This document shows positions 2,334 to 19,644 of a stretch of DNA of 64,000 nt, in pieces (the first letter of the stretch is position 1; every line of letters begins with the position of its first letter). The notes under the pieces were generated by a model. It saw only the letters and a list, made by a program, of their open reading frames with translations. It did not search any database and had not been told where the DNA came from. The position numbers and the translations under genes were made by a program. Origin of the DNA: Mycetocola manganoxydans (lineage in GTDB: Bacteria; Actinomycetota; Actinomycetes; Actinomycetales; Microbacteriaceae); contig NZ_RCUV01000007.1 of the NCBI RefSeq assembly GCF_003667545.1, positions 171,770 through 235,769 on the forward strand, written 5' to 3'.

Positions 2334-2555
2334 GAGCCTGCGGCCGCACGTTCGGTGGTCACCAGTGCACGTATCGGGCGGGTTCGGGGTGCGTTCGTGA
2401 CAACTGAACGGATGCCGCGGGCCCGCCCGCCGGTTCGGTGGTCGCTTACGCACCGTATTCGCCGCTGAAGCGTGCATTAGTGACAGCTGAACGCGACCCC
2501 GTCACATCCATACCGTCTCGGGAATACCCCGCCGCCCGACCCGGTTGGCCCGAGA

Positions 2556-3361: not shown

Positions 3362-3830
3362 TGTCGGCCACGGTTGCACCGAAGGCATCGACGAGCGCGT
3401 CGATGTCGACGAACGCACTGTGGCCCTGTTCACCCGCGCCGAGTGCGACCCGGCGACCCACCGCGGACTCGTCCACCCAGACGGGCCAGGCCGTGCTGCT
3501 TCCGAGTGGCGTGATCGTGCCGCGGCCGTATCCGGTCGCCTCGAACGCGACATCCGCCGACGGCATGGACAGCTTGTTCACGCCGACGAGGGCGCGCAGC
3601 TTGGGCCATGAGATCTTGCGGCCGCCGGGCACGAGTGCGAACAGGAAGTCGCCGTCGTGCCGTTTGACGACGAGCGTCTTGACGATCTCTTCCGGTTCGA
3701 TGCCGAGCAGCCTGGCGGCATCCTCGAGGCTCGACGCTTCTGGCCGGGGAAGGACCGACACGTCGAGGCTGCGAGCAGCGGCGTCGGCCATCATCCGCTC
3801 CAGTCCACCGCCGATTCGCTGTTCGGTCAT
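3345..3830 (-). CDS. YbaK/EbsC-type aminoacyl-tRNA deacylase
   Basis: Protein of 161 aa with the YbaK/ProRS-INS editing fold. It contains the substrate-binding lysine region (EEIVKTLVVKRHDGDF), the glycine-rich loop KISWPKLRALVG and GYGRGTITPLG. Family members hydrolyse mischarged aminoacyl-tRNAs such as Cys- or Ala-tRNA(Pro); which substrate applies here is unclear. The ATG at 3830 is chosen over longer upstream frames because it begins the domain (MTEQRIGGGLERMMADAAAR). The gene is divergent from dusB, with 33 bases between the starts. Confidence 0.88.
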   Translation of the reverse strand: MTEQRIGGGLERMMADAAARSLDVSVLPRPEASSLEDAARLLGIEPEEIVKTLVVKRHDGDFLFALVPGGRKISWPKLRALVGVNKLSMPSADVAFEATGYGRGTITPLGSSTAWPVWVDESAVGRRVALGAGEQGHSAFVDIDALVDAFGATVADITDPE

Positions 3831-3863
3831 GGTTTCGCCAGCTTTCTGGGAGAATTGAAGGAC

Positions 3864-6324: not shown

Positions 6325-8178
6325 ATGGCCGGCCGCATTCGCTCAAGCGACATAGACGAGGTCAAGTCACGCACGAACATCGCCGACATCGTCGGCGATT
6401 TCGTCAGCCTCAAGTCAGCAGGCGTCGGCTCTCTCAAGGGTCTCTGCCCGTTTCATGACGAGCGCAGCCCCAGCTTCCACGTGCGGCCCCAGCTCGGTTT
6501 CTACCACTGCTTCGGGTGCGGCGAATCCGGCGACGTCATCTCGTTCCTGCAGAAGATGGACCACGTCACCTTCACGGATGCCGTCGAGCGGCTCGCCGCA
6601 CGCGCCGGCTTCTCCCTCACCTACGAAGACGGCGAGGGTGCCCCCGACCACGGCAATCGGGCCCGCCTCCTCGCTGCAAACGCTGCAGCCGAAGGGTACT
6701 TCCGCGAGCAGCTCGCATCGCCCGGCGCAGACCCGGGCCGCCGGTTCCTCGGCGAACGCGGATTCGACCATGTCGCCGCTGAACGCTTCGGCGTGGGTTT
6801 CGCCCCGAAGAGTTGGGATTCGCTCACCAAGTTCCTCCGTGGCAAGGGATTCTCGGTCGAGGAGATCACCGCATCCGGGCTCGTCTCGCAGGGCGACCGT
6901 GGCATCTACGACCGGTTCCGCGGCAGGCTGATCTGGCCGATTCGCGACGTCACGGGGCAGACCGTCGGCTTCGGGGCGCGCAAACTCCTCGACGACGACA
7001 AAGGCCCGAAATACCTCAACACGCCCGAGACCCCGGTCTACCACAAGGCGCAAGTGCTTTACGGGCTCGACCTCGCCAAGCGCGACGTCTCCCGCAGCGG
7101 GCGTGTGGTGGTCGTCGAGGGATACACCGACGTGATGGCGTGTCACCTCGCCGGCGTCACGACCGCCGTCGCCACGTGCGGTACGTCGTTCGGCGTCGAC
7201 CACATCAAGACCCTCCGCAGGGTCATGGGCGACGACAGCGGCAAGGGCGAGGTCATCTTCACCTTCGACCCGGATGCCGCCGGCCAGAAGGCCGCGATGC
7301 GTGCGTTCGCCGAAGAGCAGCGTTTCTCCGCCCAGACGTATGTCGCGGTCGCGCCAGACGGGCTCGACCCGTGCGACCTCCGGCTCAACCGCGGTGACGA
7401 CGCCGTCCGACGGCTGATCGAGACGAAGGAGCCGATGTTCGAGTTCGTCATCCGGCAGACCCTCGCCGCCTACGACCTCGAAACGGTGGAGGGCCGCGTC
7501 GGCGCCCTCACGGCATCCGCTCCGATCATCGCCGACATTCGCGACCCGTCGCTCCGCCCCGGTTACACGAGGGTGCTCGCGCGCCACCTCGGCGTGGACC
7601 TCGCCGAGGTGCAGGCTGCGATCAGCCGCGCCGGGCGGGGTGCTGGTCGTGGTGCATCGACCAAGGGCGCGGGCGCGACCGAACCCGAGGCGCCCGCTGA
7701 GCGTCCGGCGTCGCTGCGAGACCTCCCAGGGGACCCGGCGACGCGCCTCGAACGTGACGCACTGATGGCGATCCTGCAGCATCCGGACATGGCTGGGCTC
7801 GATCTCGTGCAGCGAGCCGTTTTCACCGGCTTCGTGAACCCGACCCTCGCGATGGTCCGGGATGCGATCGCTGCGACTCTCGACAGCTTCGGTGCCGCCA
7901 ACTGGTTCGAGCGGATCATCGAGACCGTGCCCACGCCGATGGTCGGATTCGTGCAGCAGCTCGCGGTCGCGCCGATCCCGGAGCGGGAAGAGCGGGACCT
8001 GACCGCGTATGTGCGCGAAATCACCATCGCGCTCATCGACCGGGACCTGCTGCGTCAGTCCCACGACATGCTCGGCAGGCTCCAGCGCACAGACCCCAGG
8101 GAGCGCGAGAGCTACCGTGCGATCCAGGCCGACATCATGGCTCTCGAGGCGGAACGCCGCAGGCTCCGCGAGCGCTGA
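6325..8178 (+). CDS. dnaG: DNA primase
   Basis: Primase (617 aa) that makes RNA primers at the replication fork. The N-terminal CHC2 zinc ribbon has Cys41, His44, Cys62 and Cys65 (CPFHDERSPSF...CFGCGESGD). The RNA polymerase core contains the Toprim acidic motif VVVEGYTDVMACH near residue 265 and DPDAAGQKAA near 315. The C-terminal DnaB-interacting part is present (DLTAYVREITIALIDRDLL). Length and order are normal. The ATG at 6325 gives the standard start MAGRIRSSDIDEVKSRTNIA. Confidence 0.96.
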   Translation: MAGRIRSSDIDEVKSRTNIADIVGDFVSLKSAGVGSLKGLCPFHDERSPSFHVRPQLGFYHCFGCGESGDVISFLQKMDHVTFTDAVERLAARAGFSLTYEDGEGAPDHGNRARLLAANAAAEGYFREQLASPGADPGRRFLGERGFDHVAAERFGVGFAPKSWDSLTKFLRGKGFSVEEITASGLVSQGDRGIYDRFRGRLIWPIRDVTGQTVGFGARKLLDDDKGPKYLNTPETPVYHKAQVLYGLDLAKRDVSRSGRVVVVEGYTDVMACHLAGVTTAVATCGTSFGVDHIKTLRRVMGDDSGKGEVIFTFDPDAAGQKAAMRAFAEEQRFSAQTYVAVAPDGLDPCDLRLNRGDDAVRRLIETKEPMFEFVIRQTLAAYDLETVEGRVGALTASAPIIADIRDPSLRPGYTRVLARHLGVDLAEVQAAISRAGRGAGRGASTKGAGATEPEAPAERPASLRDLPGDPATRLERDALMAILQHPDMAGLDLVQRAVFTGFVNPTLAMVRDAIAATLDSFGAANWFERIIETVPTPMVGFVQQLAVAPIPEREERDLTAYVREITIALIDRDLLRQSHDMLGRLQRTDPRERESYRAIQADIMALEAERRRLRER

Positions 8179-8226
8179 TCGGCGCGGGACTGTAGCGGCA
8201 CCCCCACTGTGGGGCAGGATGGTGCC

Positions 8227-9063
8227 ATGACTGCATCGGCAACACCGGAAGCGGCGGTGCTGGCCGACGACCTCGCCGTCGAATACCCAGCTCGCCGCCC
8301 CAGCGCGCCCCACCGAGCACTTGACGGCGTCAGCCTTCGTGTCGGAGTCGACGAGATCATCGGGATCATCGGCGAAACCGGCGCGGGGAAGTCCACGCTC
8401 GCCCGGGTCCTCGCCGGGGACCTTGTGACACCCAAGGGCACCGATCCGGCCCCGGTCATCGTCGGGGGAGAGGCGACGGTCCTGGGCTCGCGGCTGCGAG
8501 GCATCCGTCGCCGGGAACTCGACCGAGTCACCTTCAAGGTCGCGCACCTGCCCCAGGATGCCGCGTCGCGGCTCACCCCCGAGCGCACCGTTTCCGAGAT
8601 CATCGCCGAGCCGATCCTGCAGCGGGACAGACACTACAACCGCAAGGCGATCGGTCTGCGGGTCGCAACGATGCTCGACGCCGTCCAGTTGCCGCTCGCG
8701 GTGCTCGACAAATTCCCGTTCGAGCTGTCGAGTGGCCAGCGCCAGCGGGTCGCCATCGCGAAGTCGCTCGTCCTCGGCCCTGAATTGTGGATCGCCGACG
8801 AACCGACCGCCGGGATCGACGTCACGGTGCGTGGAGCGATCAACGATCTCATCGGCCGGCTTCGCGAGGAGGGCAGTTTTTCAGCGGTCCTCGTCAGTCA
8901 CGACCTCTCACTGCTGCGCCGGACTACATGCCGGGTCGCAGCGCTCGAATCTGGTCGTGTCGTCGGGCTCGGACCGATCGACGAGTTGCTCGCCGGCGGG
9001 CAGCATCCGTTCCTCAGCGGTCTCGCCGACGCGGAAAACCGTGTCACTGCCGACGGCGGCTGA
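8227..9063 (+). CDS. ABC transporter ATP-binding protein (oligopeptide-type NBD)
   Basis: A lone nucleotide-binding domain of 278 aa. It has Walker A GETGAGKST (from residue 49), signature LSSGQRQR (about 167), Walker B LWIADEP and the switch His in VSHDLSLL. The C-terminal HPFLSGLADAE resembles the DppD/OppF subfamily. No permease or binding protein is adjacent, so the transported substrate is unknown. The ATG at 8227 is preferred to the in-frame GTG at 8209 because it follows CAGGAT by 6 bases and matches the spacing of other leaderless starts here. Confidence 0.85.
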   Translation: MTASATPEAAVLADDLAVEYPARRPSAPHRALDGVSLRVGVDEIIGIIGETGAGKSTLARVLAGDLVTPKGTDPAPVIVGGEATVLGSRLRGIRRRELDRVTFKVAHLPQDAASRLTPERTVSEIIAEPILQRDRHYNRKAIGLRVATMLDAVQLPLAVLDKFPFELSSGQRQRVAIAKSLVLGPELWIADEPTAGIDVTVRGAINDLIGRLREEGSFSAVLVSHDLSLLRRTTCRVAALESGRVVGLGPIDELLAGGQHPFLSGLADAENRVTADGG

Positions 9064-9081
9064 CCCGGAGGGCCTGTCGAT

Positions 9082-9109
9082 TTGGACTCTGCCGATCCTT
9101 TGGTAAAGT
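9082..9109 (+). promoter_or_regulatory. Promoter of tRNA-Asn
   Basis: TTGGAC (-35, 9082-9087) and TAAAGT (-10, 9104-9109) are separated by 16 bases. The -10 box ends 17 bases before the mature tRNA. Confidence 0.65.
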
Positions 9110-9126
9110 AATCACGCACGACATAA

Positions 9127-9199
9127 TCCTCGATAGCTCAATTGGCAGAGCAATCGGCTGTTAACCGGTAGGTTCTTGGTTCGAGTCCAAGTCGAGGAG
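9127..9199 (+). tRNA. tRNA-Asn (GTT)
   Basis: Full cloverleaf of 73 nt. The acceptor stem pairs TCCTCGA with TCGAGGA, with discriminator G. The T-loop is TTCGAGT. The anticodon GTT is at 9160-9162 in loop CTGTTAA. CCA is not encoded. Confidence 0.97.
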
Positions 9200-9203
9200 C
9201 TGA

Positions 9204-9242
9204 GAAGACCACAAGGGCTCCACCCCTGTGGTCTTTTCTTTT
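9204..9242 (+). terminator. Rho-independent terminator of tRNA-Asn
   Basis: The hairpin AAGACCACAAGGG/CCCTGTGGTCTT is followed by a T-rich run (TTTTCTTTT) right after the tRNA. Confidence 0.85.
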
Positions 9243-9273
9243 CCCTCTGAGCCGCTCGCCCCGGCCGAGCGGC

Positions 9274-9840
9274 TCAGTCGTCGAGGTGGTCGACGCCGGG
9301 CATCCAACTCACCCCGGGAACGCCCCAGCCCATCTTCTTCGTGATCTTGTGGACGAGCTTGCGTTCGTGCCGAGCCAGACGGTCGACGTAGAGGTAGCCG
9401 TCAAGGTGGTCGTATTCGTGCTGGAGAATACGTGCCCGCCAGCCGTCGACTCGCAACTCGACGGGGTTCTGCTCCAGATCGACGCCGGTGATGATCGCTT
9501 CGTCGGCTCGCCGCAACGGGAATCGCTCGCCGGGGAACGAGAGGCAGCCTTCCGACTCGAGTTCTTCGTCGGGGTCGCCGGCGGGCGGGGGAGTGATCCA
9601 CAGCTCCGGATTGATGACGACACCGCGCCAGGGCCCATGCTCGTCCGTGTCGTATCCGTAAACGAAGATCCGGAGCGGGACGCCGACCTGCGGTGCCGCG
9701 AGGCCGACGCCGGGAGCGGCATCCATCGTTTCGAACATGTCCGACACCAGCTGGCGAAGCGAGTCATCGAACACCGTCACCGGCTCTGCAGGGGAGTGGA
9801 GAACCGGGTCGCCGGAGATGCGAATGGGAAGAATAGACAT
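9274..9840 (-). CDS. def: Peptide deformylase
   Basis: Metalloenzyme (188 aa) that removes the formyl group from nascent proteins. All three motifs are intact: GVGLAAPQVG, EGCLSFPG (metal-ligand Cys) and QHEYDHLDG (HExxH metal site). The ATG at 9840 lies 6 bases after a TAGGCT box on this strand. It is divergent from the DMT transporter and convergent with the tRNA-Asn terminator. Confidence 0.95.
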   Translation of the reverse strand: MSILPIRISGDPVLHSPAEPVTVFDDSLRQLVSDMFETMDAAPGVGLAAPQVGVPLRIFVYGYDTDEHGPWRGVVINPELWITPPPAGDPDEELESEGCLSFPGERFPLRRADEAIITGVDLEQNPVELRVDGWRARILQHEYDHLDGYLYVDRLARHERKLVHKITKKMGWGVPGVSWMPGVDHLDD

Positions 9841-9846
9841 TCGTTG

Positions 9847-9852
9847 AGCCTA
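9847..9852 (-). promoter_or_regulatory. -10 box of def (leaderless type)
   Basis: TAGGCT on the minus strand ends 6 bases before the def ATG. Confidence 0.55.
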
Positions 9853-9870
9853 ACCAAGACACGCCCGTTG

Positions 9871-9876
9871 TAGGCT
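9871..9876 (+). promoter_or_regulatory. -10 box of the DMT transporter gene (leaderless type)
   Basis: TAGGCT ends 6 bases before the GTG at 9883. It is back to back with the identical box of def. Confidence 0.55.
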
Positions 9877-9882
9877 CGCTTC

Positions 9883-10827
9883 GTGATGTTTGCGAGCAAC
9901 GACTTTACCGACCTGACGGCTGAGTTCGTTCGCAACCCCACCCAGCTGATCGGCATCCCGCTGGCGATCGTCGGTGCCGTGTTCTTGTCACTGGGCGCGC
10001 AGTTCCAGCATCGTGGAGTCACCAAGGTCGAGGCCAACAGCGGCGTCGACGCACGGACGGGCCTCAACGTGGGCCAGCTGAAGCAGCTCCTTGCGCGCCC
10101 GTCGTGGGTTCTCGGCACTCTCATGCTCGGGTTCGCGATCGCTTTCCAGCTCACAGCCCTCGTGTGGTCACCGCTGATCATCGTGCAGCCGCTCGGCGCC
10201 ATCGCGCTTGTGATCACCGCCATACTCAATGCCAGGATCAACAAGGTCGACCTCAACCGGGCATCCGTCATCGCCATTTCGGCGTGTGTGGGCGGTGTGG
10301 CGCTGTTCGTGACCGTCGCCGCCCTGGTGGCAGGGGAGAAGCCGGTCACCCGAGCCGACCTGATCACCGTCCTCATCATGCTTGCGATCGTGCTCGTGCT
10401 GTTCGCGCTGGGTTTCGTGTTCTTCCGCAAGCGGTCACGCGCGCTCTTCTACATCCTCGCCGCCGGCATCATCTATGGATTTGTCGCCACCCTGGCGAAG
10501 GTTGTGATCAACCGGATCGTCAACCAGAACTTCGACTGGCTCACCGTGCTGTGCGTCGTTGCCCTGCTCGCGGCCACCGGTATCGGAGCGTACTTCGTGC
10601 AGACGGCGTATTCGTCGGGGCCGCCGGACCTCGTCATCGCGGGCCTCACGGTCGTCGACCCGATGGTCGCCGTCGCGATCGGCATCGTCGTGCTCGACGA
10701 GGCCAGCAACGCCCCGCTCTGGGCGATGATCGGTTTCGTCGTCGCCGGGGCGATCGCCGTCTGGGGTGTCTTCCAGCTCGCGAGGCACCACCCGCAGGCC
10801 CAGAACCACGCGCAAGCATCGGGCTGA
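9883..10827 (+). CDS. DMT-family (EamA/NIPA-like) transporter
   Basis: Polytopic membrane protein of 314 aa with about nine to ten hydrophobic segments and a duplicated four- to five-helix organisation typical of the drug/metabolite transporter superfamily. Motifs such as SLGAQFQHRGVTKVE and DPMVAVAIGIVVLDE resemble actinobacterial DMT proteins related to NIPA. Substrate cannot be predicted. The GTG at 9883 is chosen by the leaderless -10 spacing; the ATG three bases later is equally possible. Confidence 0.8.
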   Translation: MMFASNDFTDLTAEFVRNPTQLIGIPLAIVGAVFLSLGAQFQHRGVTKVEANSGVDARTGLNVGQLKQLLARPSWVLGTLMLGFAIAFQLTALVWSPLIIVQPLGAIALVITAILNARINKVDLNRASVIAISACVGGVALFVTVAALVAGEKPVTRADLITVLIMLAIVLVLFALGFVFFRKRSRALFYILAAGIIYGFVATLAKVVINRIVNQNFDWLTVLCVVALLAATGIGAYFVQTAYSSGPPDLVIAGLTVVDPMVAVAIGIVVLDEASNAPLWAMIGFVVAGAIAVWGVFQLARHHPQAQNHAQASG

Positions 10828-10854
10828 CCGGTCCCACGGGTCAGTCATCAGGTT

Positions 10855-10879
10855 TAGTGGCCGCCGTTTGCGGCCGCTA
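10855..10879. terminator. Hairpin after the DMT transporter gene
   Basis: TAGTGGCCGC and GCGGCCGCTA pair across a 5-base loop with one G-T pair. There is no T-tract. Confidence 0.45.
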
Positions 10880-11090
10880 CAGAGATGACGAAGTCGACCG
10901 CGTGAAATCGACAACCGCTTCCGACAGCGGTCAGCGGAAGGCTGTCTCAACTGCTGCGGCACGCGTGCCGGGTTCCCGCGAGGGAAGGTGGGGGCCGGTT
11001 AGAATAAACCGACCGATCCCGGGAGGCCAAACGCCGAGGGATGTGGCTGGTAGCTCGAGTACCGGCCGATGACGGAGGAAAACCCCCATC

Positions 11091-12353
11091 TTGCCTGACG
11101 CACTGAATCCGACCGACAACGGTTCGACCAGTTCCGCATCCGACGGAAAACGCCCTTTGCGGATCATCATCGGCGCTGACACCTTCTCGCCGGATGTGAA
11201 TGGCGCGGCGCGATTTGCCGAACGGCTCGCAGCGGGCATGGTCGGTCGGGGCCACGAGGTCCACGTCGTCGCCCCAGCTCCTTCGCGCAAACGCGGCACC
11301 TGGACGGAGACCCACGAGGGTCAGCAGATGACGGTGCACCGGCTGAGGAGCTGGCGCTGGTATCCACACGACTGGCTGCGTTTCGCGTTGCCGTGGACCA
11401 TCAACCGGAACTCCGCCCGCATCATCGACGCGGTGAAGCCGGATGTGATCCACTCGCAGTCGTACCTCAATGTCGGCCGCGGGCTCTCGAACGAAGCCGC
11501 CAAGCGTGGCATCCGGATCATCGCCACCAACCACCTCATGCCGGAGAACGCCCTCGAGTTCACGCTCATGCCTGACCGCTTCCGGGAAAGGCTCGTTCGA
11601 TGGGCCTGGAAGCTCGCCCGCGGCAACCTCAGCCTCGCTGAAGCGGTCACCACGCCGACGCGTCGTGCAGCCGACTTCCTCGAGAAGTACACAGGTCTCA
11701 CCGGCGTGCACGCGATTTCGTGCGGCATTGACGCCCACATGTACACGCCGAGTTTCGAGCCGCGTACCGAAAACCGGATCATCTTCGTCGGGCGGGTCAC
11801 CGGTGAGAAGCAGATCGACGTGCTCATCAAGGCTTTTGCGACGCTCGACCCGGCACTTGACGCGAAACTCGAGATCGTCGGGGGAGGCGACCAGAAGCGC
11901 AACCTCGAGAACCTCGCCGCCGAGCTCGGGCTCGGGGAACGGGTGATTTTCACCGGCTATGTCAGCGACGAGGACCTGCGTGCCGCGTACACTCGCGCGA
12001 CCGTGCTCGCAATGCCGTCGATCGCGGAGTTGCAGAGCATCGTGACCATGGAGGCGATGGCATCCGCTCTTCCTGTCGTGGCAGCGAACGCGATGGCGCT
12101 CCCACACCTCGTGCACGACGACGAGAACGGGTACCTTTTCGAGCCGGGCAATGTCGAGGAACTCGCGGCGCGGCTCACCGACGTGCTCACCGCTTCGCCG
12201 GAGAAGATCACGGCGATGAAAAAAGAGTCTCTGCGCATGATCAAAGCGCACGATATCCAGCGCACACTCTCGACGTTTGAGAGCATGTATCGTGGGGAAT
12301 CGGTGACCGACCCCGTCACCGAATCGATTCCCATTCAGGTGTCCGACGACTAG
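11091..12353 (+). CDS. Family 4 glycosyltransferase
   Basis: GT-B fold glycosyltransferase of 420 aa. The N-terminal acceptor half begins IIIGADTFSPDVNGAARFAE. The C-terminal GT4 half contains RIIFVGRVTGEKQID, the nucleotide-sugar motif and the EX7E-like stretch PSIAELQSIVTMEAMASALP. It resembles enzymes that build mannosyl or glycosyl lipids at the membrane, but donor and acceptor cannot be fixed. The TTG start is supported by GGAGGA about 11 bases upstream. It is followed directly by tRNA-Met. Confidence 0.87.
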   Translation: MPDALNPTDNGSTSSASDGKRPLRIIIGADTFSPDVNGAARFAERLAAGMVGRGHEVHVVAPAPSRKRGTWTETHEGQQMTVHRLRSWRWYPHDWLRFALPWTINRNSARIIDAVKPDVIHSQSYLNVGRGLSNEAAKRGIRIIATNHLMPENALEFTLMPDRFRERLVRWAWKLARGNLSLAEAVTTPTRRAADFLEKYTGLTGVHAISCGIDAHMYTPSFEPRTENRIIFVGRVTGEKQIDVLIKAFATLDPALDAKLEIVGGGDQKRNLENLAAELGLGERVIFTGYVSDEDLRAAYTRATVLAMPSIAELQSIVTMEAMASALPVVAANAMALPHLVHDDENGYLFEPGNVEELAARLTDVLTASPEKITAMKKESLRMIKAHDIQRTLSTFESMYRGESVTDPVTESIPIQVSDD

Positions 12354-12362
12354 ACACCACCG

Positions 12363-12436
12363 GGGGCGGTAGCTCAGCTGGTTAGAGCAGCGGACTCATA
12401 ATCCGTCGGTCACGGGTTCAAGTCCCGTCCGCCCTA
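12363..12436 (+). tRNA. tRNA-Met (CAT), used as an integration site
   Basis: Complete 74-nt cloverleaf. The acceptor pairs GGGGCGG with CCGCCCT, with discriminator A. The T-stem is ACGGG/CCCGT. The anticodon CAT is at 12397-12399 in loop CTCATAA. Without more context an elongator Met is assumed; a lysidine-modified Ile tRNA cannot be excluded. Its 3' half is repeated at 14872-14916, marking the end of an inserted island. Confidence 0.95.
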
Positions 12437-12438
12437 CA
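12394..12438 (+). repeat. attL-like 45-bp direct repeat (tRNA-Met 3' part)
   Basis: These 45 bases, from the anticodon loop through ACA after the acceptor stem, are identical to 14872-14916. This is the usual attachment core of a tRNA-targeting tyrosine-recombinase element. Confidence 0.9.
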
Positions 12439-12804
12439 TATAAACACTGGGAAGCAGGACTACGCCAGAAGCCCGCTGCCCCCTATTCTGCCCCCTATGG
12501 TGGCTTCTATCCGATCCACGAAGTATCTATTCTTCTCTCCGACCGTGTGTACATAGTTGGCGAGCGTGAACCCCACTCACGTGCTGGCCATCTCCGGCGC
12601 GGGCGGGCATGAGTTCTGGAACGCGTTCCGTTCGTTGGCGATTCGAACATTGTCGAAGCCGGAAACTGTGGGACACGCTCGCCCGTGAGGCACACCGGCA
12701 CACGCTGCCTGTCACAATGAGCCTGTGGCTAATCGTTTCAAGGCGATGAATAGCGCTGAGGCATTGCGCACCACTCCGTCGAGCTGAAACTTGGGAAAGT
12801 AAAG
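12439..12804. other. Gene-free left end of the island
   Basis: I find no supportable gene. The stretch holds the repeat at 12479-12501 and then sequence with short broken frames on both strands, possibly remains of recombination genes. No convincing promoter for the next gene could be fixed. Confidence 0.5.
12479..12501 (+). repeat. Island terminal repeat, left copy
   Basis: CCCCCTATTCTGCCCCCTAT followed by GGT. Inside it the unit CCCCCTAT occurs twice. The right-hand copy (14749-14770) differs by a one-base deletion. It may be an integrase arm-type site. Confidence 0.6.
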
Positions 12805-13914
12805 ATGGCTGATATCCCGAAGAAGACACCCCTAGATTCAGAGCTTGAGGCTGCACGTCGGTCCATACATACCGATGGCTATCCGATGAGCATCGGCGAA
12901 CTCACGAATCTTTACCGGGATGGCGAACTAGTCATCAGTCCACCGTTTCAGCGACTCTTTCGTTGGGATGATTCCCAGAAGTCTCGCCTGATCGAGAGCA
13001 TACTAATCGGAATACCACTGCCGTCGATTTTCGTCGTGCAAGATGAGGCTGGTAAATGGGAACTCGTTGATGGCTTGCAGCGAGTGAGTACTCTTCTGCA
13101 GCTACAGGGCATGCTGGACCCCAAGGAGTTCCCTTCGCTCGTATTGACGGAGACAAAGTACCTGCCGTCGCTGGAGGGCGCAGTATGGGAGTCGGATACG
13201 CAGCCTTCCCTTACCTCAGTTCAAAGACTCGATATCAAGCGCGCGAAGATTGACCTGAAGATTGTGCAGAGAGGGTCCGATCCCAAGACGAAGTTTGATC
13301 TGTTCCAACGTCTGAATTCCTTCGGGTCCAAACTTTCGAATCAAGAGATACGGAATGCTCAGTTGGTGGGCGTGAACCCGAGTTTCGTCGCATGGCTGAA
13401 CGAGATCGCCAACCGCGAATCGTTTGTGTCCCTTCTTCGGTTACCCGAGGCCGATAAGGCCAAGAAGTACGACGAGGAACTCGCACTTCGATTCCTTTTC
13501 CTGCACTCAAAATCAAACGACGAAATACTTAGCATCCGCAGTTTCCAAGATGAACTAGAGGAATTCTCGGTGGGCTTGGCATCAAGCTTCTCGGATGACG
13601 TCAAGCACCGTCTGGACGAAGTATTCGGGAAGACGTTCGACCGGCTGCAGGCTGCCGACGAGGATGTTCTCCGGCGGTGGGACGCTGCGAAAAACAGGTT
13701 CACGGGCGGCTTCCTGAATACCTCCTTTGAGGCACTCGCTGTGGGGCTTGGCTATCTCATCACGGAGGGCTCGTGGTCTCGCCAAGATTTGCGGGCGGCC
13801 GCGATCGAGTTTTGGAACGAGCCCGAAATGACCGGACAGTTCGCCACGGGAAAGTCCACAGAGGCCCGCTTACGGTTGATGGTGCCTAAAGGGCGGAAGA
13901 TCCTCAGCTCCTAA
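12805..13914 (+). CDS. DUF262 domain protein (GmrS/ParB-like fold), putative defence component
   Basis: Protein of 369 aa. The N-terminal DUF262 domain has SPPFQRLFRW at residues 45-54, the helix RLIESILIGIPLPSIFV, and the signature DGLQRVST at residues 89-96. DUF262 is the N-terminal part of the GmrSD type IV restriction enzymes and of several other defence proteins. The DUF1524 HNH nuclease that completes GmrSD is absent. The ~230-residue C-terminal part is helical with no motif I recognise. ATG follows GGGAAAG by 8 bases. The TAA stop overlaps the ATG of the HEPN gene (TAATG), so the two are probably co-translated. Composition is AT-richer than the flanks, pointing to transfer. Biochemical role is inferred. 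Confidence 0.85.
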   Translation: MADIPKKTPLDSELEAARRSIHTDGYPMSIGELTNLYRDGELVISPPFQRLFRWDDSQKSRLIESILIGIPLPSIFVVQDEAGKWELVDGLQRVSTLLQLQGMLDPKEFPSLVLTETKYLPSLEGAVWESDTQPSLTSVQRLDIKRAKIDLKIVQRGSDPKTKFDLFQRLNSFGSKLSNQEIRNAQLVGVNPSFVAWLNEIANRESFVSLLRLPEADKAKKYDEELALRFLFLHSKSNDEILSIRSFQDELEEFSVGLASSFSDDVKHRLDEVFGKTFDRLQAADEDVLRRWDAAKNRFTGGFLNTSFEALAVGLGYLITEGSWSRQDLRAAAIEFWNEPEMTGQFATGKSTEARLRLMVPKGRKILSS

Positions 13915-14564
13915 TGGTGAAAATTCGAACCCTCGAGGCGTTGGAAGATGCGATCTCCGACGAGATAGCGTGGCGGAAGCGAGAACTTACTACCGCTCGA
14001 AAACTCGTGCAGCAATCGTCGGGCTCCACCCAGACCGCCAATCTGAGGTCTGGGGTCCTCATCCTGTACGCGCACTGGGAGGGCTGGGTCAAGAACGTTG
14101 CTCGTCTATATATTCGGTACGCCAATACCCAGAGCGCCACTTATGCTCAGCTCAGCTCTGCGTTCCTAGGCAATGCACTAAAAGTAAAGATTTCCTCCAT
14201 CGAGAAGGCATCGACACCAGCAATACATAATGAGTTCGCCTTGTTTCTGATGGAGGGCCTTTCGGGCAAGGCTCGTCTTTCCGAGGATCTCGTCCAGACT
14301 CAAAGCAATCTCTCATCGGCGGTCTTGTCTAATGTCGTGGAGCGCCTCGGTCTACCGCGACGAACGGAATATGCCACGCGAGCGAACATGATTGACCAAG
14401 AGCTAGTGAACAGGAGGAACTCCATTGCTCATGGGCAGTTCTTGGAACTTAACGCCAACGATTTTCTAGCCCTTCATGAGGACGTGCTCGCGCTGCTGCA
14501 ACTCTTCACCGACGACGTACGGAATGCCGCCTCCACCAGTTCGTACCTGAAAGATTCGGTCTAG
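13914..14564 (+). CDS. HEPN-fold nuclease-like protein (MAE_28990/MAE_18760 type)
   Basis: Protein of 216 aa, mainly helical. LYAHWEGWVKNVARLYI (residues 51-67) and VNRRNSIAHGQFLEL (from about 165) match the MAE_28990/MAE_18760 HEPN family. The catalytic HEPN motif Rx4H is intact as Arg168-Asn-Ser-Ile-Ala-His173. HEPN proteins of this kind act as RNases in toxin-antitoxin and abortive-infection systems. The start overlaps the stop of the DUF262 gene by one base. I infer the HEPN protein is the toxic effector and the DUF262 protein its sensor, regulator or antitoxin. A strong terminator follows at 14701. Confidence 0.82.
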   Translation: MVKIRTLEALEDAISDEIAWRKRELTTARKLVQQSSGSTQTANLRSGVLILYAHWEGWVKNVARLYIRYANTQSATYAQLSSAFLGNALKVKISSIEKASTPAIHNEFALFLMEGLSGKARLSEDLVQTQSNLSSAVLSNVVERLGLPRRTEYATRANMIDQELVNRRNSIAHGQFLELNANDFLALHEDVLALLQLFTDDVRNAASTSSYLKDSV

Positions 14565-14700
14565 CGAGTTCCTGCGGTTCAAGATCCGGACCTCATCGGC
14601 CCCGCACCCTCATTTGCTGCATCGCTAACCGGCTGCAGGTCTCGCTGGGAAGGTTCATTCGATGATCTAAAGGAACACTGACCCGAACTGAACAGAAGAT

Positions 14701-14745
14701 GCTCCCCCTGCCCGGCGTTTGCGCCGTGGCGGGGGGAGCTTTTTC
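14701..14745 (+). terminator. Strong terminator at the end of the island
   Basis: GCTCCCCCTGCCCGGCG pairs with the run GCGCCGTGGCGGGGGGAGC, followed by TTTTT. This is a classic Rho-independent terminator. Confidence 0.9.
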
Positions 14746-14748
14746 TGT

Positions 14749-14770
14749 CCCCCTATCTGCCCCCTATGGT
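14749..14770 (+). repeat. Island terminal repeat, right copy
   Basis: CCCCCTATCTGCCCCCTATG followed by GT. It is the same element as 12479-12501 with one base missing, 102 bases before the attR-like core. Confidence 0.6.
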
Positions 14771-14871
14771 TCTAATAACCTCCAACATAGAGCCACAGTT
14801 TGATCCTGAACTTCCGCATGTTTCCGCCGATCTGCCACACGAGCCACACCCACCAACAGGCACAACGGTAA

Positions 14872-14916
14872 ACTCATAATCCGTCGGTCACGGGTTCAAG
14901 TCCCGTCCGCCCTACA
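14872..14916 (+). repeat. attR-like 45-bp direct repeat
   Basis: Exact copy of 12394-12438. It contains only the anticodon loop, T-arm and 3' acceptor of tRNA-Met, so it is not a functional tRNA. Confidence 0.9.
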
Positions 14917-14999
14917 ATACGAGCCTGACCAAATCCCACGAGTGGGATACTTCAGCTCACTCCTCGTCGAGCGATTTCTGCCGACTCTCCGCGTCGAGT

Positions 15000-15305
15000 G
15001 CTTCGTGCCCTGGCCGTGTCCGGGGAACTCCCGCTCCACTTCAGCCGCCTCCGAATGCCTCTCGCTTTGCTAGTTGGGTTTCGCACGGAGGCCTCCGTGG
15101 GCGCCTGGCTCGCGGTCGCAGGAATTCTGATCCTGTTCACGTTGGCTCTGACCTGGCTGGCGGTGGTGGCCGGTCTTTCCGCCAGAACCGTCGACGGCTC
15201 GAGCGCCTTCAGTTACCCGCTGATCTTCTTGCCGTTCGTCAGCTCGGCGTTCGTGCCATCGCGTACGTCTGGGCCGTCGCGATGTACCGTCGCAAGCTCA
15301 GCTAA
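15000..15305 (+). pseudogene. ABC-2 type transporter permease, decayed fragment
   Basis: One frame reads WLAVAGILILFTLALTWLAV, then VAGLSARTVDGSSAFSYPLI and FLPFVSSAFVP, the conserved core of DrrB-like ABC-2 permeases. It then breaks. In another frame the sequence continues IAYVWAVAMYRRKLS and stops at 15305, which matches the usual C-terminus. About 50 residues between these parts are missing, as is the N-terminal half. No ATPase partner remains. It abuts the island's attR, so decay or deletion may relate to the insertion. Confidence 0.7.
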
Positions 15306-15422
15306 CTGTCGCAGACCTGACGACCGCTCGGGGTCCGTCCACCACGATGGCAACCACGACGGCGAGGCTCCACCGGGAGTACGATCCGGGTGAAGCACTC
15401 CGCGTTCGCTGGAAGGAACCCG

Positions 15423-16022
15423 ATGAGACAACTTCGATATTCGATCAACGTCACGCTCGACGGATGCTGCCACCACGAGGCAGGAGTGGCTCCGGACGAG
15501 GAGTCGATGCGCTTCTGGACCGCAGGGATGGAACGAGCTGATGCGCTGCTGTTCGGCCGGGTGACCTACGAGATGATGGAATCGGCGTGGCGAAAGCCCC
15601 TCACCGGTGTATGGCCCGAGTGGATGAATGAGTGGGAGATACCGTTCGCCGAGGCCATAGACCGGAAGAAAAAGTACGTCGTGTCGAGCACACTCGAGCG
15701 GGTCGACTGGAATGCGGAGTTGGTGCGCGGCGACCTCAAAAGGTCGGTGCAGCGGCTCAAGCAGGAATCAGGCGAAGGCGGCCTGTCGGTCGGTGGGGTG
15801 ACACTTCCCCTCGCGTTGGCGGATCTGGGTCTGATTGACGAATACGAATTCGTCGTTCAGCCGGTCCTTGCGGGACACGGGCCGACGCTGTTCGCCGGTC
15901 TGAGCGAGCCAATCGAATTGGCGCTCGTGGACCGGCATGAGTTCCGGTCCGGCGCGGTCGCCATGCGATATCGAGATGATCGCCGCAAAGTTCGCGTTCT
16001 CGCCGGGGGATCGATACTGTGA
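15423..16022 (+). CDS. RibD C-terminal/dihydrofolate-reductase-like protein
   Basis: Protein of 199 aa with a Rossmann-like reductase fold: RQLRYSINVTLDGCC, DALLFGRVTYEMMESAW, GGLSVGGVTLPLALADLGLI and DEYEFVVQPVLAGHGPTLF are hallmarks of the RibD_C family. Members reduce pteridine- or pyrimidine-like substrates with NADPH, but most have no assigned role. The ATG at 15423 follows GGAAGGAA by 6 bases and is preferred to an upstream in-frame start. It stands alone among accessory genes. Confidence 0.85.
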   Translation: MRQLRYSINVTLDGCCHHEAGVAPDEESMRFWTAGMERADALLFGRVTYEMMESAWRKPLTGVWPEWMNEWEIPFAEAIDRKKKYVVSSTLERVDWNAELVRGDLKRSVQRLKQESGEGGLSVGGVTLPLALADLGLIDEYEFVVQPVLAGHGPTLFAGLSEPIELALVDRHEFRSGAVAMRYRDDRRKVRVLAGGSIL

Positions 16023-16049
16023 GGCTTCTCACACACCAAAGGAGCCGAT

Positions 16050-16373
16050 ATGTCAGCTGAAGTGAACACCACTTTTCACACACCCGCGGATGTAACGTCG
16101 GTTGCCTCGGCGATTCAACGCGTGATTGCCGACAACAAACACATGCTTCTCGGGAACTCCGCCGACGGCAGCCAGATCGATTTCTTGACTCGGAAGACGA
16201 TGTTGAACTGGGAACTCAAGGGGAGCGCAGTGACCACACCAGCGTCGGGTGGTTCAAACGTCGCACTTACGCTTGACGTACAGGACGGTCGCCCCCGCGC
16301 CCTGCTCGACGGCATGAAGAACCAGAAGGCACTCGACAAACTCGTCGGCCAGATTCAAGACGCGCTCAAATAG
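16050..16373 (+). CDS. Small conserved-type hypothetical protein
   Basis: A 107-aa soluble protein preceded by AGGAG 6-7 bases before ATG. It starts SAEVNTTFHTPADVTSVASA and has a central beta-rich part (FLTRKTMLNWELKGSAV, NVALTLDVQDG) and a C-terminal amphipathic helix (NQKALDKLVGQIQDALK). I do not recognise the family. Codon use is like the backbone, and the good ribosome-binding site makes it a credible gene. Confidence 0.7.
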   Translation: MSAEVNTTFHTPADVTSVASAIQRVIADNKHMLLGNSADGSQIDFLTRKTMLNWELKGSAVTTPASGGSNVALTLDVQDGRPRALLDGMKNQKALDKLVGQIQDALK

Positions 16374-16459
16374 CGGCTGCCGGCGACCAACCAAAGGGCG
16401 CTCGTTTACACCGTCAATCCGCTCGGGGACGGCGGCCATAAGCTGCGGGCCCGCTGCAA

Positions 16460-16465
16460 TATACT
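16460..16465 (+). promoter_or_regulatory. -10 box upstream of a 21-codon leader and DUF808
   Basis: TATACT ends 6 bases before the ATG of a 21-codon ORF. No clear -35 is visible. Confidence 0.5.
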
Positions 16466-16471
16466 GCGACT

Positions 16472-16537
16472 ATGCCAATCACACGCGGCCTTCCCGCTCA
16501 GCCGTCGGACCTCGAGCAGCACGGTGGTGATCTGTGA
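16472..16537 (+). CDS. Possible 21-aa leader peptide of the DUF808 gene
   Basis: The ORF reads MPITRGLPAQPSDLEQHGGD and ends in L-TGA. Its ATG is placed like a leaderless start after TATACT, and its TGA overlaps the GTG of the DUF808 gene (GTGA). Translational coupling is plausible; a peptide function is not evident. Confidence 0.35.
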   Translation: MPITRGLPAQPSDLEQHGGDL

Positions 16538-17556
16538 GCGGCGGCCTCGTTGCGCTGCTGGATGATGTCGCGGCGCTGGCCCGCATCGCGGCTGCCTCGA
16601 TCGACGACGTCGCGGCCGGCGCGGCGAAAGCAGGAGTGAAGGCAGCAGGTGTCGTCATCGACGACGCTGCAGTGACGCCGCAATACGTCTCGGGTTCTGA
16701 GCCCTCTCGCGAACTGCCGATGATCAAGCGAATCTTCTGGGGCTCGCTGCGAAACAAGTTGTTGATCATACTGCCCGCGTTGCTGCTCATCAGTGCCTTC
16801 ATTCCGGCAGTGATCCCATTCATCCTCATGCTCGGTGGCACCTACCTCTGTTACGAGGGCGCGGAGAAGGTCTGGCACAAACTGCGCGGCCACCATGCAG
16901 AGGAGAAGGCCCCGGCCGTCGAGCGAGGCCCTGAGGCAGAGGCGAAGGTGACCAAGGGCGCCATCACCACCGACTTCATCCTTTCCTGCGAGATCATGGT
17001 GATCTCGATGAACGAGGTCGCGGACGAGTCACTGTGGGTTCGCGCGATCATCCTCGTCGTTGTCGCAATCGGAATCACGGTGCTCGTGTACGGCGCCGTC
17101 GCACTCATCGTCAAGATGGACGACATCGGTCTGCACCTCACGACAAAGGACTCCGTCAGCACCCAGCGATTCGGTGCAATGCTCGTCAAGGGGATGCCAG
17201 CGGTCCTGGCCGGAATCACTTTCGTCGGCACGATCGCCATGCTCTGGGTCGGCGGCCACATCATGCTGCAGGGAGTTTATGACCTCGGCTGGCACCTGCC
17301 CTATGACCTGGTGCACACGCTTGAGGCCCCGTTCGTCGGGATCCCGGTCGTCGGAGGCGTCCTGGTCTGGCTTGTGGATACCCTGTGTTCAGCGGTGCTC
17401 GGACTGGCGTGGGGGCTCGTCGTGATGGCGGTCCTGCACCCCTTGCTGAAGATCCTGCCTTTCGGCAAAAAGAAGGGTGAGCACGAGGAAGGTGCCGTAC
17501 GCGCTGCGGTCGCTGGTCATCGTCCGGAGAAGCGCGGCGTCGATTCGACCTCCTAG
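16534..17556 (+). CDS. DUF808 (YedI-type) membrane protein
   Basis: Protein of 340 aa. The start SGGLVALLDDVAALARIAAA with IDDVAAGAAKAGVKAAGVV and then DDAAVTPQYVSG is diagnostic of the DUF808 family. Several membrane segments follow (LLIILPALLLISAFIPAVI, AIILVVVAIGITVLVYGAVA and two later ones). The function of the family is unknown. GTG is used as start because it opens the conserved block and overlaps the leader ORF stop. Confidence 0.88.
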   Translation: MSGGLVALLDDVAALARIAAASIDDVAAGAAKAGVKAAGVVIDDAAVTPQYVSGSEPSRELPMIKRIFWGSLRNKLLIILPALLLISAFIPAVIPFILMLGGTYLCYEGAEKVWHKLRGHHAEEKAPAVERGPEAEAKVTKGAITTDFILSCEIMVISMNEVADESLWVRAIILVVVAIGITVLVYGAVALIVKMDDIGLHLTTKDSVSTQRFGAMLVKGMPAVLAGITFVGTIAMLWVGGHIMLQGVYDLGWHLPYDLVHTLEAPFVGIPVVGGVLVWLVDTLCSAVLGLAWGLVVMAVLHPLLKILPFGKKKGEHEEGAVRAAVAGHRPEKRGVDSTS

Positions 17557-17557
17557 C

Positions 17558-17944
17558 TCAACCTGACCGTTCGGCCTCACTGCGCAGAATGCAGAACTCG
17601 TTGCCCTCGGGGTCGCCAAGCACGACCCACCCCGTTCCATCCGACATCCGTCGGTCGTCGATCACTCGGGCTCCCAGTTCCAGCAAACGCGACAGCTCCT
17701 GATCGCGCGTGCCGTCGGCAGGCACAAGATCGAGGTGGAGCCGGTTCTTGACCTGTTTCACATCTGGCACCTCGATGAAGAGAAGCCGCTGGGTCCGATC
17801 AGGCGAGAAGATCATGCACTCTTCGTCTCCCGGGCCGTCGGGATCGTCGGCGTCCGGCGCGAAGCCGAGGACTCTGCCCCAAAATAGCGACTGAGCGTAG
17901 GCGTCGAGGCAATCGAAGGTCGTGTGCGAGATGAGAGCGGTCAC
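17558..17944 (-). CDS. VOC (glyoxalase-like) family protein
   Basis: Protein of 128 aa from the GTG at 17944. It has the beta-alpha-beta-beta-beta repeat of the vicinal oxygen chelate fold: SHTTFDCLDAYAQSLFWGRV, NRLHLDLVPADG and VVLGDPEGNEFCILR. The last motif is typical of the glyoxalase-like subgroup. Substrate unknown. An upstream TTG (17980) would add 12 residues but has no ribosome-binding site; the start is uncertain. Its stop is one base beyond the DUF808 stop, convergent. Confidence 0.78.
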   Translation of the reverse strand: MTALISHTTFDCLDAYAQSLFWGRVLGFAPDADDPDGPGDEECMIFSPDRTQRLLFIEVPDVKQVKNRLHLDLVPADGTRDQELSRLLELGARVIDDRRMSDGTGWVVLGDPEGNEFCILRSEAERSG

Positions 17945-18052
17945 GACCGCAATGCTGGCAGCATCGCGACGCACGAGCAACTAAAGACCGCGTCTGACAG
18001 GTCCTTGCTGTCAGCATCCTGCACGTCACCCTTCCCGTAACGCGACCCGTCC

Positions 18053-18058
18053 TACCAT
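18053..18058 (+). promoter_or_regulatory. -10 box of the small membrane protein gene
   Basis: TACCAT ends 6 bases before the ATG at 18065, the leaderless spacing seen repeatedly here. Confidence 0.5.
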
Positions 18059-18064
18059 GGGGTC

Positions 18065-18265
18065 ATGACCTTCAAGACGGAACCGAGCACCGCCGACCGC
18101 CGTTTGCGTCTCGCGCTTTGGACAGTCGCGATCGTTCTCGCGCTCATCGGGGTCGGAGTCGCCATCGTCACCTCATCGTGGGCGCCGCTGGTAATCGTGT
18201 TCGGGTTGGCCCTGCCGATGATTCCGTTCCGTTCTCCCATGACGACGCGTCAGCGGACGCGCTGA
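18065..18265 (+). CDS. Small two-helix membrane protein
   Basis: A 66-aa protein with a basic N-terminus (TADRRLRLALW), two predicted membrane helices (about residues 17-36 and 40-54) and a basic tail (MTTRQRTR). Family not recognised. The leaderless -10 spacing and clean hydrophobic pattern support it as real. Confidence 0.6.
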   Translation: MTFKTEPSTADRRLRLALWTVAIVLALIGVGVAIVTSSWAPLVIVFGLALPMIPFRSPMTTRQRTR

Positions 18266-18331
18266 CTCATCGACTTGCGGAGCCGCAGGTGTACCGACTG
18301 AGTGTCCGGGGAAAGCGGGACGAGCTGGCGC

Positions 18332-18337
18332 TAAGCT
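18332..18337 (+). promoter_or_regulatory. -10 box of the DUF1801 gene
   Basis: TAAGCT ends 6 bases before the ATG at 18344. Confidence 0.5.
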
Positions 18338-18343
18338 CGCGTC

Positions 18344-18706
18344 ATGGCTGAGAAAGCGAAGAGCGTCGAAGAGTATCTCCCCGCGCTCGACCCCCGAACC
18401 CGATCAGAACTCGAACGGATCCGCGGCATCGTGACACAGCTCGCGCCTGATACCGAAGAGACGATGAGTTACGGGATGCCCACTCTCAAATATAGGAATC
18501 GAGCGCTCGTGTACTTCACCGCCTCCAAGAAACACATGAGCTTTTACCCCTCCTCATGGGCGATAGAGGAGTTGAAGGAGCAGCTCGACAACTACAAGAC
18601 CACCGAACACGTGATCCAATTCACCCCGGACAACCCCTTGCCCCGCAGCCTGGTCGAGGACCTCGTTCGCGTCCACATGAGCGAGATCGACGCGAACAGG
18701 CAGTAG
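18344..18706 (+). CDS. DUF1801 (YdhG-like) family protein
   Basis: A 120-aa soluble protein. KSVEEYLPALDPRTRSELER, SYGMPTLKYRNRALVYFTA and KKHMSFYPSS match DUF1801 proteins, a fold shared with the frataxin-like iron chaperone YdhG/Fra. Actual role unknown. It is a single gene with its own leaderless-type promoter. Confidence 0.85.
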   Translation: MAEKAKSVEEYLPALDPRTRSELERIRGIVTQLAPDTEETMSYGMPTLKYRNRALVYFTASKKHMSFYPSSWAIEELKEQLDNYKTTEHVIQFTPDNPLPRSLVEDLVRVHMSEIDANRQ

Positions 18707-18781
18707 CCGGTCGGGTTCGCGGTGAGGGGCGGCGCAGCCTAAGCAATTGCCGGATGGGAGTTTCGACTGTTACCCAAGTGG

Positions 18782-18829
18782 CTTTCCAAAACGGAAAACG
18801 AACCGATATGCTTTCCAGCATGGAAAACG
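18782..18829. promoter_or_regulatory. Twin operator-like palindromes before the membrane protein/HTH pair
   Basis: Two similar palindromes of the form CTTTCCA-n-GGAAAACGA lie 29 bases apart: 18782-18799 and 18811-18829. The second covers the start-codon region of the next gene. They are good candidates for autoregulatory binding sites of the winged-helix protein encoded two genes on. Confidence 0.6.
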
Positions 18830-19287
18830 ATCACAGGAATTTGTCGCCGGCGGAGGCCGCCACCGCCCTGAACGGGCTGACCGTGGACAGGGAACGCCTT
18901 TCCTCGAGTGTGCAGGTGCCATGGGTGCTTCTCGCGGCGTTCGGGGGAGTAGGGGCGTGGTGGGTGTCGACCGCTTCCGGCACCACGCCCGGTGGGAATT
19001 ATGAGCCACCGGCATCCGGGTGGTTGGCGCTGGTCGGGGCTCTCGTCATCGCGCACCTGGTGCGTCGAGAGACTGGCGTCCGGTTTCGCAAAATGGGCGT
19101 TCGTGCCGGATGGGCGTTCGCCGGCATCCTCACCGTGTGCCTCGTGGTCTTCAGCGTCTCTCTCGGCCTCGTGTCCTTCGGCCTGCACTGGGCGGTCGCA
19201 CTGACCAGTCTGCTCGCCTTCGCGGCGACAACGTGGTTGGCCGGTGTGGCTTTTCGCTCAGCAGTGGAGCAGTTGCGCCGTGGGTGA
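18808..19287 (+). CDS. Membrane protein paired with a winged-helix regulator
   Basis: A 159-aa protein with a short soluble N-terminus and four hydrophobic segments (VPWVLLAAFGGVGAWWV, GWLALVGALVIAHLV, WAFAGILTVCLVVFSVSLGL, WAVALTSLLAFAATTWLAG). Start is uncertain: ATG 18808 or the in-frame ATG 18820; neither has a strong ribosome-binding site. Its stop overlaps the GTG of the regulator gene. Homologous pairs of a small membrane protein and a HTH_34-type regulator are common in actinobacteria. Function unknown. Confidence 0.7.
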   Translation: MLSSMENDHRNLSPAEAATALNGLTVDRERLSSSVQVPWVLLAAFGGVGAWWVSTASGTTPGGNYEPPASGWLALVGALVIAHLVRRETGVRFRKMGVRAGWAFAGILTVCLVVFSVSLGLVSFGLHWAVALTSLLAFAATTWLAGVAFRSAVEQLRRG

Positions 19288-19585
19288 AGCGAGCTTCGAC
19301 GAGACCATTCACGCACCGGTCCGGTTGCGGATCTGCGGGCTCTTGCGACCCGTGGAACAACTCGACTTCGCGGTGCTGCGCGACGCACTGGACGTGTCGG
19401 ATGCAACGCTCTCCAAACACCTCAAGACTCTCGCCGCATCGGGTTACGTCTCCTCGACGAAAGTTGCGTCCGCCGGACGCGATGACGCACGGCGAATCAC
19501 CTGGCTGAGCCTCACCAACGCAGGAAGATCTGCGTTCGATGCGCATGTGCTCGCGCTTCAACAGATCGCAGGAACGCTCGCCTGA
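19280..19585 (+). CDS. Winged-helix transcriptional regulator (HTH_34/ArsR-like)
   Basis: A 101-aa DNA-binding protein. The helix-turn-helix core is VRLRICGLLRPVEQLDFAVL with RDALDVSDATLSKHLKTLAA; the wing GYVSSTKVAS follows, then TWLSLTNAGRSAFDAHV. GTG at 19280 overlaps the upstream stop, giving MGEASFDETIHAPVRLRICG. It probably represses its own two-gene operon through the twin palindromes at 18782-18829. Confidence 0.83.
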   Translation: MGEASFDETIHAPVRLRICGLLRPVEQLDFAVLRDALDVSDATLSKHLKTLAASGYVSSTKVASAGRDDARRITWLSLTNAGRSAFDAHVLALQQIAGTLA

Positions 19586-19644
19586 ATCGAGGGTTGAGGT
19601 AGCGGCACGGATGTGGTCGGCTTAGTCGCGGAGAGGGGCGCAAC

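Follow-up and report, generated by a model that had tools for sequence, protein, structure and literature searches.

The anti-phage system PD-T4-2 was found by selection with phage T4, and its deletion from Escherichia coli ECOR65 was reported to raise T4 plaquing dramatically (Vassallo et al. 2022, PMC9519451). In the entries of a recent review, PD-T4-2 is placed both under DUF262 proteins without DUF1524 and under HEPN proteins of family PF18735, and the DUF262 proteins of GmrSD, BrxU and SspE are presented as parts of systems acting on modified DNA (PMC10952713). Pairings of HEPN proteins with ParB-type partners had been tabulated earlier: the entries of Anantharaman et al. (2013, PMC3710099) describe the MAE_28990 HEPN family as 'in operon with a ParB nuclease and DNA methylase genes' and the RiboL-PSP HEPN family as 'operon with ParB'. 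A literature search, made mostly without full texts, brought up no study of how a DUF262-HEPN pair works mechanistically. Here we describe such a pair (genes A and B), residing in a small tRNA-Met island within a 64,000-nucleotide stretch of contig NZ_RCUV01000007.1 of Mycetocola manganoxydans (the window, whose positions are used as coordinates throughout unless a locus is named). By sequence comparison, it falls into a PD-T4-2-like subfamily of such pairs, and is not PD-T4-2 itself, GmrSD or the DUF262-containing system Menshen.

The cassette and its closest described systems

Gene A (12805..13914, forward strand) is an open reading frame (ORF) with an ATG start, whose 369-amino-acid product matches the Pfam family GmrSD_N/DUF262 (PF03235, E 5.2e-24, above cut-off). 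Gene B (13914..14564, same strand and type of start) encodes a 216-amino-acid HEPN protein of the MAE_28990/RiboL-PSP type, matching both HEPN_MAE_28990 (PF18737, E 1.2e-37, 130.6 bits versus a cut-off of 26.8) and HEPN_RiboL-PSP (PF18735, E 1.3e-28, above cut-off). The two genes overlap by one base, shared by the TAA stop codon of gene A (13912-13914) and the ATG of gene B (13914-13916). A Pfam scan found neither DUF1524 nor any other DNase domain in the two proteins, and a scan of NCBIfam gave zero matches for either of them. The G+C content of the cassette (52-57% in 500-base steps) is below that of the remainder of the region 8000-20000 (58-70%). A preliminary description of the locus, made from the sequence alone, had proposed a two-gene cassette with these boundaries and this overlap, the same DUF262 and MAE_28990-type HEPN assignments, a missing DUF1524 nuclease and an AT-rich composition; all of this was borne out, the coordinates to the exact base.

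Both proteins carry strongly conserved motifs. In gene A, residues 89-93 (13069..13083, forward strand) form DGLQR, a putative nucleoside triphosphate-pocket motif, of which D89, G90, Q92 and R93 are invariant among 31 aligned DUF262 proteins, and which is invariant in full, L91 included, among 69 closer relatives. The Rx4H motif of gene B extends from R168 to H173 (RNSIAH; 14415..14432, forward strand). In an alignment of 42 HEPN proteins that includes those of distant plasmid pairs, invariance is confined to R168, H173 and G174; these three are also invariant among 75 closer relatives, together with W20, R21, E24, H54, E56, K60 and N169, among others. The residue numbers previously assigned to both motifs, and the view that the HEPN motif is intact, thus need no change.

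The predicted model of the gene A protein (predicted local distance difference test, pLDDT, 86.8) suggests a nucleoside triphosphatase (NTPase) fold of the ParB/Srx type: BrxU (7p9k) is its best match in a Foldseek search, BrxU, ParB and PadC rank first, and the profile of the gene A family reaches the solved DUF262 structures of SspE and BrxU. For the gene B protein (pLDDT 93.3), Foldseek returned nothing at E <= 0.001. VIA-align placed HEPN entries at or near the top, including HEPN toxins of MNT-HEPN pairs, but within the range of chance matches between helical bundles, and the only match of the gene B profile among solved structures was an unrelated protein (E 0.77).

PD-T4-2 is represented in PADLOC by two models, PD-T4-2_A (DUF262) and PD-T4-2_B (HEPN), and we compared the system through these models and through the related pair of an E. 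coli prophage (L021), not through its own sequence. Gene A matches PD-T4-2_A (PDLC04027, E 7.3e-28, 95.6 bits), with the NsnA model of Menshen scoring higher. Gene B has no match to PD-T4-2_B (PDLC04028), either in the protein scan or genome-wide, and its sole PADLOC match is Cas5b (E 0.011). The prophage pair matches both models (PD-T4-2_A, E 1.7e-55; PD-T4-2_B, E 1.4e-8), its HEPN protein also being recognized by PF18735 (E 2.2e-19). Gene A is 29% identical to the prophage DUF262 protein over 251 residues, while the BLASTP similarity of gene B to the prophage HEPN protein is limited to RNxxAHG. The window pair thus resembles PD-T4-2 in its DUF262 and HEPN components, in the membership of gene B in PF18735, the family that lists PD-T4-2, and in the gene order shared with the prophage pair; it differs in that gene B misses the second model, which the prophage HEPN protein matches. 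Since gene A matches PD-T4-2_A whereas gene B misses PD-T4-2_B and shares only RNxxAHG with the prophage protein, we regard the pair as belonging to a PD-T4-2-like subfamily and not as a strict member.

The other described systems are more distant in one component or another. With GmrSD, BrxU and SspE the pair shares the DUF262 module and a DGQQR-like motif (DGLQR in gene A), but these systems possess a DUF1524 nuclease, in place of which the window pair has a separate HEPN protein. The MAE_28990 and RiboL-PSP operons involve the same HEPN families and the same type of partner as judged by genome context; the part of that survey concerned (PMC3710099) is a context table without experiment, whereas the present data concern one subfamily, for which co-divergence was quantified, and include an island with tRNA repeats at its ends. 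NsnA is the top PADLOC model for gene A, a DUF262 protein being common to Menshen and the window pair. The partner genes of NsnA in Menshen are NsnB and NsnC. According to the entry in the review, an OLD nuclease is among the partners (PMC10952713), in contrast to the HEPN protein encoded by the second gene here, and no further gene is present within the island, to which this comparison was confined. Membership in Menshen on the strength of the NsnA match was rejected: ten other DUF262 proteins were scanned, nine of which have a HEPN partner recognized by Pfam, and for all ten NsnA likewise outscores PD-T4-2_A and ranks highest overall; the model is therefore unspecific.

Recurrence, co-divergence and mobile carriage of the pair

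The preliminary description had suggested that the two genes are transferred as one functional unit, and had proposed a search for their co-occurrence. We collected loci with HEPN queries from three genome contigs, six plasmid records (five were opened; H4 was left out) and, out of 394 genomes of the class, four additional ones, while 26 viral contigs, near-identical copies included (such as L069-L071 and L076-L080), were found using an alignment of HEPN relatives. The two families recur as neighbours: a DUF262 gene lies directly upstream of the HEPN gene in 37 of the 38 loci, i.e. in 2/3 genome contigs, 5/5 plasmid records, 4/4 genomes of the class other than the own one, and 26/26 viral contigs. 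Among the plasmid loci, the pair of L009 spans the origin of a circular record, and gene A of L008 is annotated as two pieces. The lone exception, an Arthrobacter locus (L004, 6001-6329), lacks DUF262, and of its HEPN gene, a close relative at 81% identity, just the C-terminal half is present. The one-base overlap is retained in the close relatives L002, L003, L005 and L006. Among the matches listed, the nearest named relatives of the window pair are actinobacterial.

The two proteins also diverge together. From the protein database we took the best 120 of 394 HEPN matches (119 entries after P0086 was left out) and the best 120 of 3971 DUF262 matches; 53 of the 119 HEPN entries, the own one included, match a listed DUF262 entry in the size of the longest contig, compared with 0-3 after the sizes had been shifted. 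For 51 single-partner pairs, the HEPN and DUF262 identity matrices are correlated with a Mantel r of 0.82, the largest value among 999 permutations being 0.33. These results agree with transfer of the two genes as a unit. Three further searches gave little: a Pfam search across the phylum was positive for 4 of 396 genomes (the own genome included, three over the cut-off), too few for a rate, and DUF262 adjoined HEPN in none of the three non-self matches, one of which lay at the edge of its contig while another scored under the cut-off; a DNA search of E. coli genomes with the Enterobacter DUF262 gene gave no match, nor did the Enterobacter HEPN protein among phage records.

Relatives of the pair are carried by plasmids of Corynebacterium, Psychrobacter, Leptospira, Enterobacter, E. 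coli, Roseomonas and Klebsiella. In two plasmids (L005 and L007) the pair adjoins restriction-modification genes of the PaeR7I and BsuBI/PstI types. Neighbourhoods were viewed for three of the 26 viral contigs (L072, L076 and L083) and for L062; the pair comes after a phage-repressor-type gene in L072, sits within a tail-gene cluster in L076, and in L083 directly follows a gene (2324-4840) for a restriction/methyltransferase-type protein. In the E. coli prophage (P2-like by its genes) it lies between the CI repressor and integrase genes. The proximity to known defence genes that had been proposed as a check is therefore found beside restriction-modification genes (L005, L007, L083), and relatives occur in prophages and on plasmids. 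The L083 protein itself matches phrog_1639, a phage-family restriction endonuclease (1885.6 bits), as well as DNA methyltransferase families.

DUF262 genes have other partners too. Seven loci (L014-L020) were reached via the DUF262 query, selected for viewing and kept outside the count given above. On a Pantoea plasmid (L019, 2851-5143) the DUF262 gene overlaps a DUF3696 gene, and in Cetobacterium (L017, 2998-4660) it overlaps a gene for a 203-amino-acid protein without a Pfam match, followed by an Eco57I-type methylase gene; the 203-amino-acid protein is possibly a further, unrecognized type of DUF262 partner. No HEPN-annotated neighbour was seen in L020. The HEPN profile missed the partners in L017 and in L053 (described below), the latter of which Pfam recognizes.

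Of the earlier claims, the one that fell was that the pairing is undescribed. PD-T4-2 combines DUF262 and HEPN components according to the review (PMC10952713), its deletion raised T4 plaquing (PMC9519451), and operons with ParB were listed in the 2013 table (PMC3710099). Given the PD-T4-2 deletion result and the match of the prophage pair to both PADLOC models, the DUF262-HEPN pairing had already been described and tested. The interpretation in the preliminary description is thus partly supported: its biological reading largely stands, its claim of novelty does not.

Proposed function and alternative explanations

We consider that the DUF262-HEPN pair is an anti-phage defence module, in which a DUF262 sensor would set free the HEPN protein, whose RNA cleavage would shut down the infected cell, with a probability of about two in three. 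The gene order, the overlap, the domains, the intact conserved motifs, the co-divergence and the carriage by mobile elements are the observations on which this reading is built, and PD-T4-2 is its precedent. In the proposed mechanism, the gene A protein would bind nucleotide, sense infection or foreign DNA, and hold the gene B protein inactive until triggered. Triggering would release the gene B protein, whose HEPN domain may then cleave RNA by means of its Rx4H site, and this cleavage would arrest the infected cell, the outcome being probably abortive. Such wiring would be analogous to that of SspE and its kin, in which a DUF1524 nuclease is under the control of a DUF262 NTPase; here a HEPN RNase would take the place of that nuclease. 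We infer the toxicity and RNA cleavage of the HEPN protein and sensing by the DUF262 protein, and likewise the binding of the two proteins, the restraint of B by A, the nature of the trigger and of the RNA substrate, and abortion as the outcome.

The main rival is a type II toxin-antitoxin (addiction) module, in which the DUF262 protein would be an antitoxin neutralizing the HEPN toxin and stabilizing the island or plasmid, phage defence being absent or secondary. Two short overlapping genes, the presence of relatives on plasmids and the MNT-HEPN toxins among the VIA-align rows for gene B are what would be expected of such a module. Gene A, however, encodes an NTPase-type protein whose nucleotide motif is fully conserved and whose length, 369 amino acids, exceeds the usual size of antitoxins. 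Moreover, the related PD-T4-2 protects against T4, and sibling pairs adjoin restriction-modification genes and occupy prophage cargo slots, so that we judge the addiction explanation to be unlikely. Still less probable is DNA-directed, type IV-like restriction, with the DUF262 protein acting on DNA and the HEPN protein serving as a structural or regulatory subunit. BrxU is the best Foldseek match of gene A, and the DUF262 systems GmrSD, BrxU and SspE are described in the review as acting on modified DNA (PMC10952713), but the Pfam scan recognized neither DUF1524 nor another DNase domain in the two proteins, and the Rx4H RNase motif is the sole part of gene B that is invariant across the 42 relatives.

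The pair might also be what is left of a Menshen-like system that has broken down, i.e. NsnA that has lost its partners. The top rank of the NsnA model for gene A is what points that way; the same model is unspecific among the ten other DUF262 proteins scanned, and the two genes are found as this same unit in many genomes, which leaves this explanation with very little credibility. The same small weight is given to the view that the genes are decayed, non-functional island cargo. An integrase ORF is absent, with a remnant present at most, and a consensus scan for sigma-70-like promoters found 0 (0.9 in shuffled sequences). Yet both reading frames are intact and hold the invariant residues, and downstream of them lies a strong GC-rich hairpin followed by a T run (14692..14748, forward strand; folding energy -48.8 kcal/mol, z -7.97), which is likely to be the terminator of the cassette and is not among the calls of a terminator consensus scan. 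Anti-phage defence thus remains our preferred reading of the pair.

The tRNA-Met island and a second pair in the genome

The integration site of the island is a tRNA-Met (CAU) gene (12363..12437, forward strand) recognized by ARAGORN and Rfam (RF00005, 72.7 bits); Rfam found nothing else in 12300-15000. Two 45-bp attachment repeats in direct orientation, 100% identical, bound the island: the left one (12394..12438, forward strand) comprises the 3' part of the tRNA, and the right one (14872..14916, forward strand) is a perfect copy of the tRNA-Met 3' end. The span from repeat to repeat is about 2.4 kb (a 2.48-kb unit including the ends). Genes A and B are its sole cargo, as had been proposed; the remaining ORFs listed between the repeats are short and mechanical, and most of them run antisense to genes A and B. 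A repeat search also revealed a left subterminal direct repeat, CTGCCCCCTATTCTGCCCCCTATGGT (12476..12501, forward strand), possibly an integrase arm site, and a right one (14745..14770, forward strand) that is 85% identical to it. In a circular form these repeats would flank the core, like arm-type sites, although this arrangement is suggestive only. The double repeat, with up to two mismatches allowed, was found in one of 59 genomes searched, namely the own genome, and its exact form in no viral contig.

The ORF list contains no integrase between the attachment repeats, and none of the six PF00589 matches in the M. manganoxydans genome lies inside the island. A stretch of 38 codons before a stop (12463..12576, reverse strand) may be a remnant of an integrase C-terminus, a weak reading made by eye; it has no Pfam match, no match among phage records and nothing notable outside its own locus among the loci collected. 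Matches to the left-end DNA in three relatives were rejected as due to chance, being located near lacI-like, glmU-like and rpsL-like genes (by eye) with no integrase recognized.

Two loci of relatives (L042 and L043) have a single copy of the attachment repeat, and their downstream DNA is unlike the right flank in the window, so that no clean empty-site comparison is available. Two other genomes carry a second copy of the tRNA-Met 3' end: that of G002 measures 41 bp and lies at a distance of 13.4 kb, and that of G005 measures 37 bp and lies at 9.1 kb; among ORFs of at least 80 amino acids, no integrase was recognized by eye in either interval. Judging from the G002 interval, the tRNA-Met site looks like a variable hotspot. 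That interval (L040; G002:C1:1687500-1701700) encodes proteins with CoiA_nuc and NucS_C domains, and a GIY-YIG-like protein recognized by eye, without a Pfam match. In one viral contig (L088) an integrase gene ends beside the same tRNA-Met sequence.

A conceivable, though quite doubtful, reading treats the 2.48-kb unit as a minimal defence element that is non-autonomous and would be mobilized in trans, through the integrase of prophages or islands inserting at this same tRNA-Met site. This idea combines the attachment repeats, the arm-like repeats at both ends, a DUF262-HEPN cassette whose HEPN protein is of the PD-T4-2-like subfamily, a terminator of its own and the lack of an integrase. The searches for a helper integrase leave movement in trans unproven. 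If true, the unit would amount to a hitch-hiking defence cassette that stands alone, much like a miniature inverted-repeat transposable element (MITE) carrying an immune system.

The genome of M. manganoxydans holds a second DUF262-HEPN pair, of a different subtype, on contig C5 (L053). Its DUF262 gene (3020-4279) encodes 419 amino acids and overlaps by four bases a gene (4276-4803) for a 175-amino-acid protein of a shorter HEPN type (PF18735, E 1.7e-7), which has no match to the PADLOC PD-T4-2_B model. Near this pair are a gene for a CHAT-domain protein (8232-10685; PF12770, E 2.2e-12) and one for a tyrosine integrase (11979-13166), and the start of the locus encodes a large relaxase-like protein (by eye). 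These surroundings are likely to be a mobile region.

The occurrence of two subtypes in one genome invites a comparison of their triggers. The present results extend the DUF262-HEPN defence pair beyond PD-T4-2, as tested in E. coli, to a HEPN subfamily lying outside the second PADLOC model. With only two genes and clear motifs, the pair from M. manganoxydans offers a small natural system in which to ask how an effector other than an HNH nuclease would be controlled by a DUF262 NTPase.
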